Under the pieces are notes generated by a model. It was not told the DNA's origin. It was given only the letters and a program-made list of their open reading frames with translations, and made no database searches. From positions 930,001-994,000 of the forward strand of contig CM074765.1 in the NCBI GenBank assembly GCA_037355855.1: a DNA stretch of 64,000 nucleotides, read 5' to 3'. Position numbers and translations under genes: made by a program. Position 1 is the stretch's first letter. Every line of letters starts with the position of its first letter. Origin of the DNA: Pseudo-nitzschia pungens. Lineage: Eukaryota; Bacillariophyta; Bacillariophyceae; Bacillariales; Bacillariaceae. Below are positions 55,037 to 64,000 of this stretch, piece after piece.

Positions 55037-56274
55037 CTGCACGTAGGTGTTTCATATTCCGACAATAACGAATTCTCATACCAAAAGTAACTGTGATGAT
55101 GTAGCCATTCCGAATAAACAAGACTGTATTGCCATCCTTCACTATGTTTCCTCCAATCTCCAATCTTTGTACCGTAATATTACCTATTCCCTTACCGAGA
55201 TCCGAGATTTTCTCAATATCATCAGAACGAATCAATTAGTGGAGTTGTAAATTTGTTAACCGTAACCATATTGGAATTTGCAACGTAACTCTTACTCGGA
55301 GAGTTGGGAGAGTTTGAGAGGGGGCCTTCTGTTAAAAACTTGTCAAAAGAATTATTTTGTCGTGGGCCTGGTAGGAATTTAACAGCTAAAACTGTGGACA
55401 AGAATTCTACTTTTGTAATAAACAATTATTCGGTTTTCTATTGGTGGGCAATATTTTATTATAACGTTCTACAAGTATTTTGATTGGATTTAAATTCGTT
55501 AGAAATTGTTGTTCACTAAGTTTTCATATCTACAGTTAGTAATATAAAATATAATTCGTCTCTTTTGATTTACTTAGTTATATACCGTTATATATTTTGG
55601 TACGAATGGATTGATGAATATTATTAATTAAAAATTTATTCTCACCATGTATTTATTGGTACGAATGGTATGATCGAAAAATTGTTCATTTTTGAATAAT
55701 TTACTATTTTAATTAAAACCATAAACCGTACCGTACTCGTACTCGTCCGGCATGATCCTAAAGTTGTTCATTTTTGAATAATTTGATTTAAACGTATCGG
55801 TTTAGTCATATGTACATAATTAATAATTAGCATTCATAATTAAATAATTAATAATTATACGTACTGACAATTGCTCAGTTTTGAATAATAATAAAGGAAG
55901 CTTCTGCCGACTTAAATAATTTTATCTTGACAATTCAAGAATCTGCCTAGTTTGTCTTCTACTCCGTACTTCCGCGTAAGAATATTTCGGTAAACCACAA
56001 TAAACTTTATTTTGCTGTCGTTTTGTTTGATCCGTTTCTGTCGGTTGTCGTTTGCGATTCTGTTTTCATTTCTGTTAGTCTTTCTAATTTGTCGTCAATC
56101 GTCGATGTTTTCAGTTGGAAGTAAGTGGTTTGAAGACAAAGGTGTTCTGATGTTTTCTTTTGTCTTCCCGTGCTTTTTGATGTTTTGTTTTGTTTTGTCT
56201 TCTGTGGTTCTATATGTTGTGCCATAATTTTCGATCAATCTTCATCAAATTGATGAAATGTTCAATTTCTCATC
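55037..56274. other. AT-rich spacer at the left edge of the foreign-looking segment
   Basis: Base composition drops sharply after about 55250, with long runs such as TAATAATTAGCATTCATAATTAAATAATTAATAATT at 55818-55853. TTGTTCATTTTTGAATAATTT occurs at 55682-55702 and again at 55764-55784, with a diverged copy at 55869-55890. No gene is seen; the 71-72 codon frames at 56007-56227 oppose each other and look like chance. Confidence 0.6.
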
Positions 56275-58168
56275 ATGGGAACGTCAAAAATGTCTAACAA
56301 AAGCGGTTCTTTGCCAACAAGAACTTATTACAGTCGAGCGAAAGCTGCAAATCAATACAAAAGTTGTAACCGACCCGATTCCACTCGGCGTAAGCAGAAG
56401 ACACAGGATGACAATTCAAAGACACAGGACGACAACTCAAAGAATGACAATTCAAAGAAGAAAGAGGCCCCACTGTATGACATAACTTTTACGAAAAGCG
56501 ACGCAGTCTTTGAATCTTTTTCACACGAGACCATATCACATTTCATGAACGTCGACTTTGTCAAGATCATTGACGATTTCTTTGAGCATGATGCACTGAA
56601 ATTCTACCGCCACGGAATCGAACTTAATGATTTTAGTTTCTGTTTCAAAGGAAGTACCGTATTGGAATCAGATTTTGATGCTCTTACTTCCCTGGTTTCA
56701 TCTGGAACTTCGACTCGAAATGAATGCAGTGCTTGGATAACTTCACCTATTCTGGACCTTGCCTCTTCGTGGACATTTATCGATACATATCATGAGTGGT
56801 TGAGTCTTCCATCATGTTTTTTTTCTTCGCTGACGAGAGGTGACTTTAAGATAGGAGGAGAAACAGATTCATATCTCAATTCTTTGCGACCCTTCGAAAA
56901 ACTTGGGAAAAATCTATTCGATTTCAAGGTCATTGATATCACCGTTTATGAAAAAGATCATTTTTCTCAGGTTTTGTTGTTTAACGTCGGCAAAGTTGGT
57001 ACAAAGGAGTTCAAAGAAGATGATGTACATTTTCCCTTTATGTTGTTTATGAATTCCAAAGGTGAACAACTGTACTCGAACGCAAGTTATCACCGGGGAG
57101 TTAACGTGGCGAGAATACTACGTTCATTCTTAAACAAGTATGGAAGAGCCAAAGGATTCTTTGACAAAAATAAATGCAACCAGAAAAGCCTTCCTCTGGT
57201 CTCGGTTCCTGGTAAGTTGTCTTTTTCGAAGATTTTGCATTCTTTTTTTTTTAATTATTCTTAATTGTTCTTTCTTTTTTGTCATAGTGCCTTTCCAAGA
57301 GAATGGTTGGTCTTGTGGTTATGAATGTCTTCTCAATCGATTTGCCGTCATGTCTGAACGAAAGAACGTCCCAAGTTTCTCCTACGCCTATGTCAAAGCC
57401 GGAGATTTGGAAATTGATCATTACCGCGCACCAGATGATGTGATTATGATTAGGAAAGACCTAGCAAAATTGGTTTTCATTCTTGAACATTTCTGTCGAC
57501 AGTATAGGACTTTGAAACCATCCGTTAAGAAGACAAAAGTCATTGCACCACCTGGTAATGATAAAGTGTCCAATCGAGAATTAAGGCTCTTCGAACGCTG
57601 CCGACTGTATTTCGATGATTCTACTTATTATCAAAAAGGTCAGTTGAAACTACAGGATCAAAGTTTTATCAAGTTTATCAAAAGTTTCAAAAAAAAGCGT
57701 AATCGGTCCAAAAAGGCAGAAGCATCTAAAGCACAACAAGGACATCGCAGAAAGGCTGAACGTGCACATTCTTTGGAATCATACCATGATGACGCACATC
57801 GTGCCGCTTTGTATCAAATGGGACACCGCATGTTTTGTTATCAATCAACTTGCAGATACAAAAATGAATTCGCAAATGTGAACACTCCAAGAACACATTG
57901 TTTTGGAGTTGTATTTAACCCTGTCAATGAATTTCCCGAGCGCAAAGGCGACAGCTTCAATCCAATTCGAAATTTTCCACAACGATTGATAATTGCTTCG
58001 AAACAAGATAAAAATGTGTTGTCGTTGATTTTATCTGATTTGAAAACTAACTCTGAGAAATATGAGATCATTGAGAAAGAAGAAGATCTGGATGTCAAGG
58101 TAATGGGTTCAAGGGCAAAACCCTTAAATGAGTTCCTTAAGAAATCGAAAGGTTCGGAAGAGAATTAA
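56275..58168 (+). CDS. Ulp1/C48-like cysteine protease domain protein
   Basis: Exons 56275-57211 and 57288-58168 (donor GTAAGT, 76-nt T-rich intron, acceptor CATAG) give 605 residues. The N-terminus is basic with a QDDNSKTQDDNSKNDNSK repeat. The middle resembles the C48 peptidase fold of SUMO proteases. His is in ITVYEKDHFSQVLLFNVG (usually HW; here HF), followed by FPFMLFMNSKGEQLY, where the normal acidic D of the YDSL strand is Asn. FLNKYG and VPFQENGWSCGYECLL then supply the oxyanion Gln and the catalytic Cys. The splice joins SVP to VPFQENG exactly at this motif. The C-terminus is very basic (KSFKKKRNRSKKAEASKAQQGHRRKAE) with a later Cys/His segment. In mobile elements such proteases process element proteins or remove SUMO; here the role is unknown. 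Confidence 0.7.
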
Positions 58169-58951
58169 GAAATTGTGATTGTCATTTCCGGACTCCGGTG
58201 GGATCACGACACAGAGATTAATTAAATAAAAAAGGAAATAGTAAATTATGTTTTAATTGTTAAATCGTGAACAATTTTTTACTTATACTATCGCTTTCAT
58301 AACAAAGAACGTTTAACAAACCACCGATATATAAATGTATTTCGTGAATTCAAAGGTTATGGTACATACCATGCAACCACAAAAGAGGTACGTATGTGTT
58401 ATTGTCGTTGAAATAACAAAAGGAAAGGTACGGAGAGTTTTTACTATGAAAAGTACGGAGACATTTTACTATGATTTAGAATTGTGCAAAAATGAACATT
58501 TTCTGATTCGAGTAGAAATAACGTACTTTCAAAAAATATAACTGAAAATAAAACTGATGTCACTTGACGTCACCAGAGGTACGCCAAGAACACGTTAAAT
58601 GTATTTACCTATATCAGCATCCGCGAAACAGTTAGATGTCACTGTATTTAAAAATTGTGCAAAAATGAACTTTTTCTGATCATAGTAGACGAACGGTAAA
58701 CCTAGTACTGTGAATAAAAATGACCACGGGAGAGGTACGGTCAGTCTTACTGCAAATTTGAATTGTGCAAAAATGAACAATTTTAGTTGTGTCCGACGAT
58801 CTGTTTCGGTGTGAAGTTTGCAAACAAAAAACATAACGAGACGACAAACGAAAGACGAAAGACGACGAGTGGTCGACAACACATTGCTATTCCAAACATA
58901 AATCAATAAACTCGTCGCAAATCGTCAAACCAAAATAAATCATATCACACC
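58169..58951. repeat. AT-rich spacer with three TTGTGCAAAAATGAAC motifs
   Basis: Motif copies at 58482-58497, 58655-58670 and 58763-58778, each embedded in (T/A)GAATTGTGCAAAAATGAAC(A/T)TTTT. GGTACGGAGAG or GGTACGGTCAG precedes two of them at a similar distance. The last copy lies about 170 nt before ATG 58952, so a promoter or UTR role for that gene is possible. The ATG within the motif opens no long frame here. Confidence 0.75.
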
Positions 58952-60880
58952 ATGACAAAATCAGATAGAACCTCCCCATTAATTGCCTCGCCAGAGAACA
59001 ACACATCTAAAAAGAGATCGCTGCAAATATCAGAAGACAATGGCAACCAATCGTCAGACGAGCCCGAGCCAAAAAAAAAGAGGCCTCCAAAAGCAACTGG
59101 AGCCACTGCTTACAATCTTGTTTTCGACAAGTTAGATAAGAACAAAGTATTGGATATGATGAACGCAAGAGGAGCCTATTTTTACGCACACAACGTCTAC
59201 AACTCAACAGGGACTTGCGAAACACGTTACTTTCCTTATGTTATTTCGTCAAACATGATGAAATATCTTTGCCCATGCGAACAAGTTTTCACGAATCTCA
59301 GGGCTGCATTCAGGCATACTGGTAATTGTGAAACAATTGAAAACGAGTCAGATCCATTTACAATTCCAGAATATTCGGTTAGAAAGAAGACTCTTCATTT
59401 GAAAATGAACTTGAATCATGCTTCTTTGCTTTGCATTTGTGGACACCGAGCATGTTACAATAAGATGACAACCCATCTCAAGCATTGTCCACATATGGAA
59501 AAATGTCAAAAAGAATATGACAAATCTCCAGAGAAGAAGCTTACAAGCTTTCAAAATAATGGAAAAAGTCACAATGTTGTGTTGGAAGAAGGATTCACAA
59601 ACAGGTGGCAGCTGCAGTGCACAAATTTCGGCGAAACAAAATTTAAGTCATCTGGTCACAGTGGATTCTCTAAATTGGACTTGGGAAGCAATGAACAATG
59701 TGTCTTCTATGTTCCAAATCAAGAAAATACTGAGTTGTTTCAAAAACCGCTTCAATTTGTCGAAAATCTGCAATCCAAAATCATATGCAATTGGGAAAAT
59801 CTCAAGACGTGGATAGAGAAAAAATCAGTTTCCAACAATTCAAATGCAATGACAATTCAGAGCTATCGATATGAATTGAAAATGAGCTTCGACAAAAAGG
59901 AAATGAAATCAGATAAAACATGGAAAGCTTTCACAAGAGAAACATCAATTACACCAGCAGAAATGAGCGAATTATTGGACTTTGTTCAAAAAATTACAAA
60001 AGAGGTTGCACTGAATTCAAACGATGTGGAAAACTGGAATTTTGCAACGCCAAGTTTAATCATTACTACTCAAGACACATGCCAAACAGTTCATCTTGAC
60101 ATTCTTGGTTCAAATCAAAAGCAATTCGGTATGATGTTATCGCCAGGACAAGCTACCACTAAAGTTTACCTTCCTCAGAAAGAAATGGAAAATGAAGTTT
60201 GCTATGACAAAGCTATTGATTTGATTAGAGATGGGATGTTATCCTATCCAGAGATGTCGTGGGCACAGCCCCCAGATGAATTCTTTTCGAGGCTAAAACA
60301 ATTGGACTCAGGGAAAACATCATTCAAACCTGAATATGGGCAGTTGTTCAGAATGATTCATGAAGTAAAGCAGAGACATTCATACAACTTGAAAACAGGG
60401 AAGTTTGAAACCAATGAATTTGATTACAACACCATTCGCTTGCTGAACGCACCTACATTCTCTTTTCTAAAACTGAATGGAGGAATTTGTCATGCTGGGT
60501 CAGGAACAACAAATAACAGTCTCAGAATTCTTCTATTCTGGACGATGAATAAGAGAGATGAAATCGGCGAATATGATTCTGATACCCAAGAAACTGCTTT
60601 GTCAAGAGTTATTGATATTGCAAAAAATGTTTGGCATGATCTCTGTCATGAAGATGACAAGATCTATATGCTTAGTTTGATTTATTTCATGTACACAGTG
60701 TCTGGTAAAGCATATCAAGAAACTGCAAGTGGCACATTTGCAAACATACCGGGCGTCGAGAACACTATTCAAGAGTTCACACAAATAAACAATCTGTTGG
60801 GTGGAACCCCAAAATTTAAAAAGTTGATGGAATTAGCAAACAATAAACAATTATTTCGTCTTCGACGAAGTGACGCATAA
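58952..60880 (+). CDS. 642-residue protein with Cys/His clusters, unknown family
   Basis: Single exon, ATG 58952. The N-terminus is hydrophilic with a nuclear-signal-like EPKKKRPPK. Two potential zinc sites follow: LCPCEQVFTNLRAAFRHTGNCE (about 110-131) and LLCICGHRACYNKMTTHLKHCPH (about 152-174). Both have C-x-C/C...H...C spacing reminiscent of C2H2 fingers. The remaining 450 residues are mixed alpha/beta with no recognised enzyme motif; conserved-looking blocks are TPSLIITTQDTCQTVHLDILG, GICHAGSGTTNNSLRILLFWTM and VWHDLCHEDDKIYML. The HLDILGSNQKQFG stretch suggests a jelly-roll or JmjC/cupin-type fold near 380, but this is a guess. The gene sits between the protease and the 247-residue gene, same strand, with A-ending codons. 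Confidence 0.7.
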   Translation: MTKSDRTSPLIASPENNTSKKRSLQISEDNGNQSSDEPEPKKKRPPKATGATAYNLVFDKLDKNKVLDMMNARGAYFYAHNVYNSTGTCETRYFPYVISSNMMKYLCPCEQVFTNLRAAFRHTGNCETIENESDPFTIPEYSVRKKTLHLKMNLNHASLLCICGHRACYNKMTTHLKHCPHMEKCQKEYDKSPEKKLTSFQNNGKSHNVVLEEGFTNRWQLQCTNFGETKFKSSGHSGFSKLDLGSNEQCVFYVPNQENTELFQKPLQFVENLQSKIICNWENLKTWIEKKSVSNNSNAMTIQSYRYELKMSFDKKEMKSDKTWKAFTRETSITPAEMSELLDFVQKITKEVALNSNDVENWNFATPSLIITTQDTCQTVHLDILGSNQKQFGMMLSPGQATTKVYLPQKEMENEVCYDKAIDLIRDGMLSYPEMSWAQPPDEFFSRLKQLDSGKTSFKPEYGQLFRMIHEVKQRHSYNLKTGKFETNEFDYNTIRLLNAPTFSFLKLNGGICHAGSGTTNNSLRILLFWTMNKRDEIGEYDSDTQETALSRVIDIAKNVWHDLCHEDDKIYMLSLIYFMYTVSGKAYQETASGTFANIPGVENTIQEFTQINNLLGGTPKFKKLMELANNKQLFRLRRSDA

Positions 60881-61548
60881 GTAGAGACAATAATTATGAA
60901 AATGTTGACGTCAATTTGAAAAAGAAAAATTATATTGATTGGTCGTGACAGTTCACCCTAATAATCGAAACATGATAATGTAGATGTCCCACATATAATC
61001 ATACTGTGACGACGACGTTTATAGCATTTTTCATTCTGGTCACAAAAGATACAAACGAGTGGTTCTCACAAAATTGTTCCTGGATGCTCCAACAGTAAGT
61101 AGAATTGGAAACGAGTGGTTCTGATACAACTACAAAGGTAATCATCACACCTTGATATGACATCATTACATTTTATCCAATCAGTATTACGTGAAAAAAA
61201 AAAATAGAACGTGACATTCGAATTGTGAATTTCTAGCCATGGGTTCATTTATCGACGAAGTTCCTGTGTTTGCACATCATTTTCCACGTACGTAATTGAA
61301 ACAAATTTGTGGTTGTAACATCGTGTACGACAATTGCGAATAGGTTTTCTACGACAATTGAATGTAGTTTTTTACCGACCACTCGGAAATTATGTGATGT
61401 ATAAGGTAAAACAACGTGTGTGTTTACGGTGTTCAACGAATTAACGGTATTCAGTCAAGTCTCATTAATTACAATACGAGTACTTGCCCGTTTTGAACAA
61501 TAATTTTTTTGTTTCAAATTGTGTTCATTTTCATCTCCAAATTTAACC
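60881..61548. other. AT-rich spacer, no gene
   Basis: Contains a duplicated GAGTGGTTCT/ACGAGTGGTTCTGATAC (61054-61125) and several short palindromes. No frame is supported on either strand. Confidence 0.55.
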
Positions 61549-62292
61549 ATGGCGCCAGTTAACTCCAAAAACAGTTCTCCTCAAGTCAAGGCTTCTCCAA
61601 GACGAGCGAAAGTTAAGAGAACCCCGGTGGTACGACCAGAAAGAAACTCTAAAAACGTCATCGAAATCTTTCAAGCAGGAGAGGATGGAAGGTTTCTGAT
61701 TGGTGTAATGTTGCAATCCAATGGATATGGTGGATTTTCGAAGCCGATTTTGGACGCCATTACTGTTGGCGACGTTGCTAAGTATCCGAAGATTGGAGAA
61801 GAATTCTTTGATATCAAATGCAAATCCCCGCTTCTCCTTCGCAAGTCTCATGAGCAAGATGTCATCATCAAGAACAATCCAAACAGCAAGTATGGACGCA
61901 TCGCTTTCGTCAGTTATCCCAACTCCGAGAAATATCCAGACATTGACATGAACGTAAAGAAGGAGTTTCGTGATCTTCTTGTCGAGATTTTCTGCAAGGA
62001 ACAACAAAAAAATGCAGAATCCACGTTTGCCCCATTTCAGCCAAGCCATTGCCGTGAACCTGCAGGGATTGCTCCTTTTTCTGCCTTGGACAAGATTTTT
62101 TTGGATGAATCCGTGGATCACATCTTGACTAACTATCATATCCCAGAAGACGCTGAAACTCCCGAAGCGAAGTATCAAATCATCACCAAAACTAAACTTG
62201 ACGACATCTACACTCGTCATTTGGACGGAAAGTTCAGCTTCTACGCCATTAAGTTCGTTGGATACCCTGAAGGACTCAATTACCAAGCTTAA
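61549..62292 (+). CDS. 247-residue protein, unknown family
   Basis: ATG 61549 (AACCATGGC). The first 40 residues are basic and Ser/Pro/Lys-rich (SPQVKASPRRAKVKRTPVVR), suggesting nucleic-acid binding or a nuclear location. Then comes a compact domain with FLIGVMLQSNGYGGFSKPILDAI, EEFFDIKCKSPLLLRKS, KYGRIAFVSYPNSEKYP and a C-terminal FYAIKFVGYPEGLNY. The repeated aromatic/Gly turns look like a small beta-barrel or single-stranded DNA-binding fold. This is a hypothesis only. It lies 685 nt upstream of the Helitron-like gene on the same strand. Confidence 0.65.
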   Translation: MAPVNSKNSSPQVKASPRRAKVKRTPVVRPERNSKNVIEIFQAGEDGRFLIGVMLQSNGYGGFSKPILDAITVGDVAKYPKIGEEFFDIKCKSPLLLRKSHEQDVIIKNNPNSKYGRIAFVSYPNSEKYPDIDMNVKKEFRDLLVEIFCKEQQKNAESTFAPFQPSHCREPAGIAPFSALDKIFLDESVDHILTNYHIPEDAETPEAKYQIITKTKLDDIYTRHLDGKFSFYAIKFVGYPEGLNYQA

Positions 62293-62655
62293 ATAAGTTC
62301 CAATGCGACCGTTGATGACTTAAGGCAATGTTTTGTCTAATATTCAGACTGACTCATTCGAATTTTCATGCAGAACAGCGATCTCTTACTTCAATCCAAA
62401 AATAATTGTCAGTAGAAAAGTGTCATAAAAATAAGAAAACGATTTAACGAAAAGAGAACCCGAATTAATATTGGTGAGTTCCTGCACTTAACAAGTTCAA
62501 CCTTTATTGCGATCGCATACATGTTTTAATCAAGAGAAGAACTACTTTTTTGTTTAATTAGCGTGATCTACGATCACTTTGTTACGCAATTAATTGGAAC
62601 TACGGTATTATGGGCACAACAGGGTTATTGTCAAAATTGTTGAATATGAGTGAGG
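62293..62655. other. spacer upstream of the Helitron-like gene
   Basis: AT-rich, no gene. Leads into the 52-nt tandem repeat. Confidence 0.5.
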
Positions 62656-62759
62656 GTTGCGTGTTAATAAAATTGTGCAAAAATGAATAATTTCGATATC
62701 ACTAAGAGTTGCGTGTTAATAAAATTGTGCAAAAATGAACAAATTTGATAACACTGAGA
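62656..62759. repeat. 52-nt tandem repeat containing TTGTGCAAAAATGAA
   Basis: Two copies with period 52 (62656-62707, 62708-62759): GTTGCGTGTTAATAAAATTG followed by TGCAAAAATGAA(T/C)AA(T/A)TT(C/T)GATA(T/A)CACT. Each contains one copy of the shared spacer motif (62673-62688, 62725-62740). The motif ATG at 62735 opens a 71-codon frame that stops at 62950, in the same frame as the downstream gene. Confidence 0.85.
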
Positions 62760-62977
62760 GTTCTCGTCCAAGTGAAATTGTTCAATTCAAATCGACTTCG
62801 TGTTTAACGAAAAGAAAGCCACACAAGACTACGGGCTATAATAAAAATTGTTCGGAGTCGAAACACTTTTGGAATTGTGTTCGTTCACAGAACATTGTAT
62901 CGCGAAAGAAATTTTCTGATTTTCTTTTTTTTTCTGCAATTGTACCTTGAATTGAAGGACTTAGATCAGAAGCAAAC

Positions 62978-64000
62978 ATGATTGAAGTTGACAACATCAT
63001 TGAAGCATACAAAAAAGCATTCAAGGCAAGAAATAGTCTACTTGCCTGTAACCAAGGGATTATTTCAGCAAAAGTGTGCTGTGTTTGTGATAGGTTTATA
63101 CGACATAATGATGAAAAAAAATTTGAAATTGATTGGCTCGTCCATCCATATGTGAGAAGACATTTTGACAAGACTATGATTGACTGGGACAACGCTCCTG
63201 TAAAATTTGTATCAGAACGTGTTCGAAAGCACGTCCTCAGCCAATACAGACAAAAATGTGTCCCAAACAGAAGAAGAATTAAGGAAGAAAGATACAGTAT
63301 GGACAATTTCATTCTATCTCCACGAACATATGCTGTAAAAACTGGACCAACTGGATCATCTGTGAAATATTTTGGATGTTGCTCTGAATGCTTTAATGGA
63401 ATGAAAAAAATGCAGAAAAATGATGAACTCATGTCTCATCCTCCTACATATGCAATTGCTAATGGTCTGATGAAAGGGTATCCTCCAAAAGAACTACTAG
63501 AGCTGACAGAAACTGAACTAGCACTTATTTCAGACGTCAGACTAAACCACCATTTGTTCTGCTTTCATGGAGGACAGCATCAGATGATAAAAGGTTATCA
63601 TATTCTCAGGAAAAATAACCTTACCTATACAAGTGGAGTTTTCAACTACATGGAGCAAATTGGAAAAAAACAAATTCAAGTTGTGCTTTCTGGGCCATTT
63701 ACACAACAACAGAAAATAAAAATTATGAAAAAGATGGATTTTAACATAACAAGAGCTAAGGCAGCTCTGAATTGGATGAAAAGAAATATCTGGTATCTCA
63801 AGGAAGAAGACATCAATGACACAGCAATAATCTCTCCCATTCTCTTTGACAAAAGCGACACAGTGCAATCAACTAATTCAAACATCGAACAACAATTTGA
63901 AATGATGGTTGTCTTTCCAGATGAACATGCTCCATCAAAACATAATGCAGGTTTTGATACTGATAAAGATCTAAGAGACCATTGCATTGAAGACCTCATT
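62978..64000 (+). CDS. Helitron-type Rep/helicase protein, N-terminal part (DUF6570-like), runs off window
   Basis: Open frame of 341 codons from ATG 62978 to the window edge without a stop. The N-terminus has a zinc-like CCVCDRF and later YFGCCSECFNGM, then the diagnostic block PPTYAIANGLMKGYPPKELLELTETELALISDVR. It continues with FHGGQHQMIKGYHI and VVLSGPFTQQQKIKIMKKM, the region (DUF6570) that precedes the Helitron-like N-terminal domain and PIF1 helicase in Helitron proteins. The HUH nuclease (Rep) and helicase motifs would lie beyond 64000. An in-frame stop at 62948-62950 separates it from the preceding 71-codon frame, so ATG 62978 is taken as the start. A family assignment from this part alone is fairly specific but needs the missing portion. 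Confidence 0.75.
   Translation, partial: MIEVDNIIEAYKKAFKARNSLLACNQGIISAKVCCVCDRFIRHNDEKKFEIDWLVHPYVRRHFDKTMIDWDNAPVKFVSERVRKHVLSQYRQKCVPNRRRIKEERYSMDNFILSPRTYAVKTGPTGSSVKYFGCCSECFNGMKKMQKNDELMSHPPTYAIANGLMKGYPPKELLELTETELALISDVRLNHHLFCFHGGQHQMIKGYHILRKNNLTYTSGVFNYMEQIGKKQIQVVLSGPFTQQQKIKIMKKMDFNITRAKAALNWMKRNIWYLKEEDINDTAIISPILFDKSDTVQSTNSNIEQQFEMMVVFPDEHAPSKHNAGFDTDKDLRDHCIEDLI

Follow-up and report, generated by a model that had tools for sequence, protein, structure and literature searches.

A putative autonomous Helitron2-type transposon carrying four genes as a unit in the diatom Pseudo-nitzschia pungens

Introduction

Do four genes crowded at the edge of a diatom contig belong to a single mobile element and, if so, to which kind? 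The question is raised by a 64,000-nucleotide stretch of Pseudo-nitzschia pungens (GCA_037355855.1, contig CM074765.1), which corresponds to C8:930001-994000 of the 66.9-Mb, 28-contig assembly and is hereafter called the window. A previous reading of the letters alone (hereafter the sequence-only reading) described an AT-rich gene cluster with distinct codon choice in its last 9 kb, starting at 55250, with a C48-like protease, a Cys/His-cluster protein, a basic 247-residue protein and the DUF6570-type start of a Helitron replicase; it suspected a Helitron-type element with unusual cargo and possibly an undescribed element type. Our comparative analyses suggest, with a probability of roughly 0.88, that the cluster belongs to a rolling-circle transposon of the Helitron2 type, autonomous and recently active, in which the four genes form a conserved unit. 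The Helitron-type identity and the unusual cargo are both borne out, by HUH and PIF1 motifs, by defined ends on many copies and by co-occurrence of the four genes in copies and families.

Extent, copies and families of the element

The mobile element is 13,846 bp long (C8:985236-999081). The window (55236-64000) contains its left 8,765 bp, and the remaining 5.1 kb were taken from the genome assembly. Three loci with a replicase start at 98–100% identity can be aligned over one block of ∼13.85 kb whose ends are sharp and whose flanks are unrelated. Between the C8 and C5 copies, which have different flanks, no letter differs over 13,849 bp. The C6 copy, in flanks of its own, is 98.5% identical to the C8 copy. 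The letter-identical copies suggest recent activity of the element. The cluster is real, with all four genes collinear on the + strand, but the element begins at 55236 rather than 55250.

GC content is 36.3% in 55234-64000 versus 47.0% in the rest of the window, and the GC content at third codon positions is 0.30–0.46 in the four element genes versus 0.55 in one neighbouring open reading frame (the sole comparator). The AT-richness noted earlier thus stands, as does the codon part, if thinly. Composition alone is not diagnostic because other 1-kb bins of the window are equally or nearly as AT-rich (one at 36.2%, two more below 38%).

The C8, C5 and C6 copies make up family F1. Families F2 (C1:2273714-2287609, 13,896 bp) and F3 (C12:1847499-1861545, 14,047 bp) share with F1 the same ends, the same four genes and lengths of 13.8–14.0 kb, in two gene arrangements; family F4 has copies at C1:9596486, C1:3434642 and C1:5538235. 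In the first arrangement (F1, F2 and a copy on C9) the protease gene is first in the row; in the second, seen in F3 and the three copies of F4, it follows the replicase (Rep) gene and runs in the opposite direction, judging from the coordinates. Between families, identities are 55–57% for Rep, 45–48% for the 642-aa protein and 52–61% for the 247-aa protein; the protease is 27–36% identical to that of F1.

A genome search with the first 341 Rep residues gave 15 matches grouped into 11 loci; loci without that part may be missed, and the counts of such a search are in any case lower bounds. The 247-aa gene is present at all 11 loci, and the 642-aa and protease genes are each present at 10. The locus near C8:2764193 lacks the 642-aa gene, and a protease piece 25 kb off was excluded from the count. 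Some copies are fragmented, namely those at C1:6.7 Mb, on C9 and at C8:2.76 Mb. Matches without Rep include a 247 piece at C3:4506202 and, close to a 3' end, a protease piece at C5:4333124. The four genes thus recur in several copies and families, as the sequence-only reading had proposed to check, and its refuting outcome, replicase copies that never carry the other three genes, is contradicted.

Rep/helicase, termini and class assignment

The fourth gene encodes a complete Rep/helicase of 1,940 aa with Pfam matches to DUF6570 (E 4.5e-13), Helitron_like_N (E 8.5e-12) and PIF1 (E 1.3e-24). The DUF6570-type start recognized earlier is therefore firm, and the HUH and PIF1 helicase motifs to be sought rightward of it are both present in the full-length protein: TLHAHF at residue 610, FYLTCYASK at 893 and GSGGTGKS at 1429. 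TLHAHF and FY(L/V)TCYASK are shared by the Reps of all three families F1–F3. The union of an HUH Rep domain bearing paired tyrosines and a PIF1-type helicase in one protein places the element in the Helitron superfamily.

The termini read TTAGTGGAGTTGT ... ACAACTCCACTAGCCCCCTCTAAGGCCCAA, with a host A outside the 5' end and a host T outside the 3' end. In F1 and F2, a 12-bp asymmetric inverted repeat (TAGTGGAGTTGT) is separated from the 5' end by 1 bp and is mirrored near the 3' end as ACAACTCCACTA, 15–20 nt from that end; of this repeat F3 shares GTGGAGTTGTAAA, located 3 bp from the end. The F2 and F3 termini, set by likeness to F1 from a single copy each, match those of F1, with TTAGTGGAGTTGTAAA after an A at the 5' end and, at the 3' end, CCAA before a T, preceded by ACAACTCCAC. 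Genome-wide, the last 28 bases of the 3' end occur at 18 places at ≤2 mismatches (17 finish CCCAAT and one CCCAAA) and the first 29 bases of the 5' end at eight places at ≤3 mismatches (the base preceding TTAG is A in seven and G in one), in searches that are biased toward the pattern's own letters; reversed-pattern controls gave 0 matches. All three families have a predicted 5' hairpin that begins at nt 9 or 10; 16, 5 and 19 of 200 shuffles fold equally well, so that each hairpin is modest by itself.

To analyse insertion, the left flank was joined to the right one for each of four copies, and the genome was searched with the joined sequences; precise insertion is seen at the empty sites of two of the four. 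For the C5 copy, nine other places cross the junction ungapped at 98–100% identity. Eight of the nine are arranged as four pairs with a spacing of 5.88 kb, and for this reason we take the places to be probably long terminal repeats (LTRs) of a recent retrotransposon, one of which was hit by the C5 element copy. The second case is L041 (C5:2249198-2256201), a gene-less 6.9-kb relative with the same ends and a long repeat array. It has one empty-site match of 96/96 bases (100%), two of them being chance letters of the adjoining query part; this match is located 75 bp past its own 3' end and is probably a neighbouring repeat unit. The empty site holds one AAT, and both junctions read AAT. Copies with differing 5' letters (AGT at C1:9204760 and TAT at C1:120562) have 3' ends 7–8 kb away that read AAT, the two ends being paired by distance. 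Because the 5' bases vary while the 3' CCAAT is fixed, insertion between A and T without target duplication is favoured, and we read the junctions in this way.

Helitron2 elements are defined by asymmetric inverted repeats of 8–15 bp, the 5' one 0–2 bp from the end, and by terminal hairpins (PMC3627910). The placement of the inverted repeat in F1 and F2 agrees with this definition, and so does the predicted 5' hairpin involving it in all three families. The Helitron2 assignment is made from these ends; the rows of the Rep tree are metagenome, Nitzschia, oomycete, animal and fungal proteins. This tree, made by a quick method from 29 of the 93 Rep relatives found plus F1–F3, with several rows flagged for letter make-up, unites F1–F3 with support 100; next to this clade stand eight metagenome proteins and a Nitzschia inconspicua protein, and the oomycete, animal Helentron and fungal rows are far away.

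Two other classes were considered and rejected. Canonical Helitron1 has 5' TC and 3' CTRR, while all three families have TT...CCAA ends; the 3' hairpin/CTRR end anticipated by the sequence-only reading is thus replaced by Helitron2-like ends. A Helentron is rejected by the lack of a C-terminal AP endonuclease match in Rep (at E≤1, Pfam finds no endonuclease family in this 1,940-aa product) and by A^T rather than TT insertion. Rather than an undescribed type, the element is better regarded as a Helitron2 variant, as Helitrons with OTU, VTD, SET, Fanzor and TET/JBP cargo are already published (PMC4067079, PMC9741609, PMC3627910, PMC12730594).

A Rep search of genome contigs gave 37 loci, 36 of which match the helicase part only, and the displayed titles are all bacterial metagenome bins. 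Among these loci, L042 (CALCCB010000119.1), binned as uncultured Bacteroidetes, is a near full-length Rep relative (query residues 31-1914, 25% identity) and is probably eukaryotic contamination.

The three accessory proteins

In the spliced protease, His229, Asn260, Gln316 and Cys322 are invariant across the three-family alignment. Profile comparison (hhalign) with human SENP1/2 gives E 0.0089 over 88 columns, in register for His, Asp-Ser (here Asn-Ser, with Asn260 replacing Asp) and Gln-x5-Cys-Gly; the 642-aa and 247-aa proteins give E 0.52 and 0.65 against the same profile. Pfam returns nothing at E≤5 for the spliced protein, and nothing relevant and no C48 at E≤10 for all three family members; a PDB sequence search found no protease relative. 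The earlier label 'C48-like protease' is thus backed by the catalytic motif and by a weak SENP1/2 profile match, but not by Pfam. On this basis the protein probably works like a C48 protease, without formal family membership.

The 642-aa protein contains two CxC-x11/12-HxxxC clusters, in agreement with the Cys/His-cluster protein described earlier, and a pattern H381xD383...H514-x10-R525 that is invariant in four families. This HxD...H plus distal Arg pattern resembles that of 2-oxoglutarate (2OG)-Fe(II) oxygenases. The 642-aa profile ranks five E. coli 2OG enzymes (AlkB, TauD, GlaH, RoxA and YbiX) at 14, 18, 26, 27 and 28 of 47 in hhalign, which leaves the oxygenase unsupported, and Pfam gives no 2OG oxygenase match; one PDB chain matches at E 0.65. 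That the protein is such an oxygenase is a tentative guess from the motif pattern, made without profile support.

The 'basic 247-residue protein' of the sequence-only reading is basic in its tail (residues 1-36, isoelectric point 12.0), but the remainder has an isoelectric point of 5.4 and the F2 homologue one of 6.4. Its conserved domain has no relatives in Pfam, PDB or a large protein search. Among 5.8 billion proteins, the 642-aa and 247-aa proteins have no homologue at E≤0.001 (2,257 and 333 candidates, respectively). AlphaFold with single-sequence input gives mean confidence scores (pLDDT) of 33.2 and 32.6 for the two proteins.

Repeated motifs and selection

The spacer motif noticed earlier is real: AATTGTGCAAAAATGAAC has seven window sites at ≤3 mismatches, with a mean of 0.18 expected and 0 of 100 shuffles reaching seven. 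The F2 motif TTTCCCTTGTTTTTTAGGGATT occurs three times upstream of Rep and twice, inverted, near the 3' end, and the F3 motif AATATTTGAAACGATTTTGAG has six copies spaced 64–75 bp. All 18 motif sites over F1–F3 are intergenic, and each family has at least two within 134–495 bp before Rep. Each motif is family-exclusive, being absent from the other two families at ≤3 mismatches. The commonest spacer 12-mer has 5, 5 and 6 copies in the three families, whereas 40 shuffles give no more than 2, 2 and 3. A protein of the element is likely to bind these motifs.

In the comparison of the C8 copy with the C6 copy, the extra three genes, when pooled, have 22 synonymous changes over 918 sites and 33 nonsynonymous changes over 3,561 sites (Fisher p 0.001), Rep has 20.5 over 1,186 and 25.5 over 4,634, respectively (p 0.0003, rounded counts), and non-coding DNA has 76 differences in 3,536 sites. 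Because the pooled changes favour synonymous sites, the extra genes are judged to be under constraint as a group, not gene by gene.

Weighing of the alternatives

Several observations weigh against the favoured explanation. (i) Concerning the protease, the SENP1/2 match has an hhalign probability of 4.6% and comes second among the 47 comparisons of the control panel, behind an AlkB match of 13 columns; exon 2 has a weak and unexplained Pfam match to FAM32A (E 0.0098) and, taken alone, one synonymous and eight nonsynonymous changes; and the F2 gene contains one in-frame stop. (ii) Concerning the other proteins, none of the protease, 642-aa and 247-aa proteins has a Pfam match above the curated cut-off or a PDB match; the 642-aa family has weak Pfam matches to ubiquitin-like ULD_2 (E 0.0011, one of four members) and Spore_III_AB (E 0.0082, two of four), and its window member an unexplained one to a phage integrase family (E 0.04); the 247 gene has a C8/C6 ratio of 0.63. 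(iii) Concerning the ends, the C8 and C6 copies have no empty site in the genome, where only their own flanks are found; the AAT pattern of the empty sites alone is compatible with either A^T insertion without duplication or a 3-bp AAT duplication; and the 3' hairpin is equalled by 14 of 200 shuffles in F3, where it is moderate, and by 92 in F1 and 78 in F2, where it is weak and indistinct from shuffles.

The alternative that survives best accepts the Helitron2 identity and treats the three extra genes as host-captured passengers, kept by hitch-hiking and without a role in transposition. Host gene pieces are often captured by Helitrons (PMC6431247), the protease gene has a predicted intron, as expected of a gene taken from the host, the four-gene set occurs in two arrangements, and protease exon 2 is without sign of constraint between C8 and C6. 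We nevertheless regard this explanation as improbable: all three extra genes persist across families whose Reps are only 55–57% identical, they are open except for the F2 protease stop and under pooled purifying selection, and full-length host gene capture by Helitrons is described as exceptionally rare (PMC6431247). An endogenous virus or virus-derived replicon, e.g. a Polinton-like one, would account for a Ulp1/adenovirus-type protease, which Polintons have (PMC10175614, PMC6431247), and perhaps for the very weak integrase family match of the 642-aa protein; but capsid, polymerase, packaging ATPase and integrase are all missing from the Pfam matches of the element genes, four scans of viral contigs, to which the giant-virus check was confined, gave no relatives, and Rep, ends and insertion are all Helitron-type, which makes this origin very improbable. 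Ordinary single-copy host genes lying together by chance, the least credible explanation, have nothing found in their favour and are refuted by the multiple copies, sharp common ends and empty sites.

Comparison with known systems

In the published literature searched, with subscription papers, preprints and Repbase outside its scope, we found no Helitron with a C48-type protease or with this four-gene set; besides the replicase, Helitrons in the cited papers at times have an accessory domain or a small number of them. Helitron2 elements (Bao and Jurka 2013, PMC3627910) resemble the present element in the Rep/helicase, a 5' hairpin built on the repeat, a 3' repeat shortly before the 3' end and a 5' T. 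They differ in cargo, which is described there as Rep/helicase or Fanzor (Chlamydomonas) and consists here of the protease, zinc-cluster and 247-aa genes, and in the distance of the 3' repeat from the end (∼20–30 nt there, 15–20 nt here); moreover, the 3' hairpin here is weak in two of three families.

The proto-Helentron-Pi of Phytophthora infestans (Thomas et al. 2014, PMC4067079) is similar in its size of ∼14 kb, multiple genes, lack of a C-terminal endonuclease, 5' TT and, on our reading of the junctions here, A^T insertion without duplication. However, its cargo comprises SET-domain and hypothetical proteins and its 3' end is CTAG rather than CCAA. The oomycete Reps in our tree, which are from Nothophytophthora, are far from F1–F3. 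Helentrons with OTU or VTD deubiquitinases (PMC4067079, PMC9741609) also combine a Rep/helicase with a ubiquitin-system cysteine protease, but these proteases are of other families, and the elements encode an AP endonuclease and show TT insertion. In fungi, Helitron1 and Helitron2 elements with TET/JBP (Kojima 2025, PMC12730594), one lineage of which is Helitron2, carry an HxD...H enzyme with a proposed role against silencing; homology to TET/JBP is established for them, whereas the pattern in the 642-aa protein lacks profile support.

Ulp1/C48-type proteases also occur outside rolling-circle elements. The Mutator transposition enzyme is DDE-type. Mutator (KIU/Vandal) and Ginger transposons carry such proteases, and Ginger is a DDE-type DNA transposon whose transposition enzyme is unrelated to Rep; Vandal VANC proteins recognize short motifs of related elements, a parallel to the family motifs found here (PMC2836005, PMC13317346).

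Beside these systems, three Rep relatives (P0050, P0084 and P0085) carry precomputed Pfam domains PF00240, PF00443 or PF02338. These families are ubiquitin, ubiquitin hydrolase and OTU, respectively. Ubiquitin-system cargo may be recurrent in Helitrons.

Proposed mechanism and implications

By analogy with known Helitrons, the Rep/helicase would nick the TT...CCAA ends via its HUH/tyrosine domain, the PIF1 domain would unwind the DNA, and the copied strand would be inserted between a target A and T; of these steps, the precise insertion is the observed outcome. The family-specific repeats upstream of Rep would likely bind Rep or the zinc-cluster protein, control Rep expression and perhaps aid end recognition. 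A possible but doubtful role for the cargo is that the C48-like protease strips ubiquitin/SUMO-like tags, shielding Rep or loosening host silencing, with the zinc-cluster and 247-aa proteins as DNA-binding helpers. A rather unlikely reading, which would be a rolling-circle parallel to the VANC/KIU system of Vandal, is an obligate four-gene Helitron2 module acting as a self-contained anti-silencing system, in which the zinc-cluster protein (possibly an Fe(II)/2OG oxygenase) would read the element's own repeats upstream of Rep and the C48-like protease would strip SUMO/ubiquitin there.

The three accessory genes have stayed with the replicase although the Reps have diverged to 55–57% identity, and the repeats upstream are family-exclusive. 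This offers a testable case of a rolling-circle transposon that keeps a protein-modification function; if the cargo counters silencing, it may help the element escape host silencing. Recent activity may also mean that this microalga is a living system for watching Helitron transposition and its control.

Feature coordinates and minor observations

Table 1. Coordinates of the element's features (window positions unless a contig is named)
Feature	Position	Strand	Remarks
Element, left part	55236..64000	+	Runs on to C8:999081; flanked by a host A (5') and a host T (3'); from three-copy comparison and empty sites of two copies
5' terminus TTAGTGGAGTTGT	55236..55248	+	Includes the 5' asymmetric inverted repeat TAGTGGAGTTGT, mirrored near the 3' end as ACAACTCCACTA
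5' terminal hairpin (predicted)	55244..55284	+	Also predicted in F2 and F3 at almost this position, where the letters differ
Two inverted F1 motif copies near 5' end	55684-55701, 55766-55783	-	2 mismatches each
Protease exon 1	56275..57211	+	Candidate catalytic His229 at 56959; Asn260 at 57052
Protease intron (predicted), GT...AG	57212..57287	+	Corresponding place in F1, F2 and F3
Protease exon 2	57288..58168	+	Gln316 at 57296; candidate catalytic Cys322 at 57314; QENGWSCG
Three F1 motif copies	58480..58778	+	191-472 bp ahead of the 642-aa gene
642-aa protein	58952..60880	+	CxC-x11/12-HxxxC clusters at 59270-59329 and 59432-59488; invariant H381xD383, H514-x10-R525
247-aa protein	61549..62292	+	Basic N-terminal tail and conserved domain
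Two F1 motif copies	62671..62740	+	255-307 bp ahead of Rep
Rep/helicase start	62978..64000	+	First 341 of 1,940 aa; DUF6570 at 63440-63823; HUH, Y-x3-Y and PIF1 parts past the window
Near-identical sequences, pairs 5.88 kb apart	C4:5374453/5368576, C12:105029/99153, C5:802422/796545, C5:4048788/4054665; also C5:3208005		

An F1-like copy at C1:6689209-6790724 (parts L025-L027) is apparently stretched to ∼101 kb, with 5' and 3' ends and ordered pieces of all four genes; it likely contains nested insertions, as the intervening frames resemble LTR-retrotransposon genes by eye. C7:4545167 and C2:7098589 each hold a protease-like open frame of 931 aa; the nearby matches include no other gene of the four, and the two frames perhaps represent another element that fused the protease. 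The array of L041 consists of 16 exact copies of one 12-mer, mostly in two alternating contexts, and end pairs like those of L041, 7–8 kb apart, are present at C8:441036-448220, C1:9204760-9212056 and C1:120562-128667.

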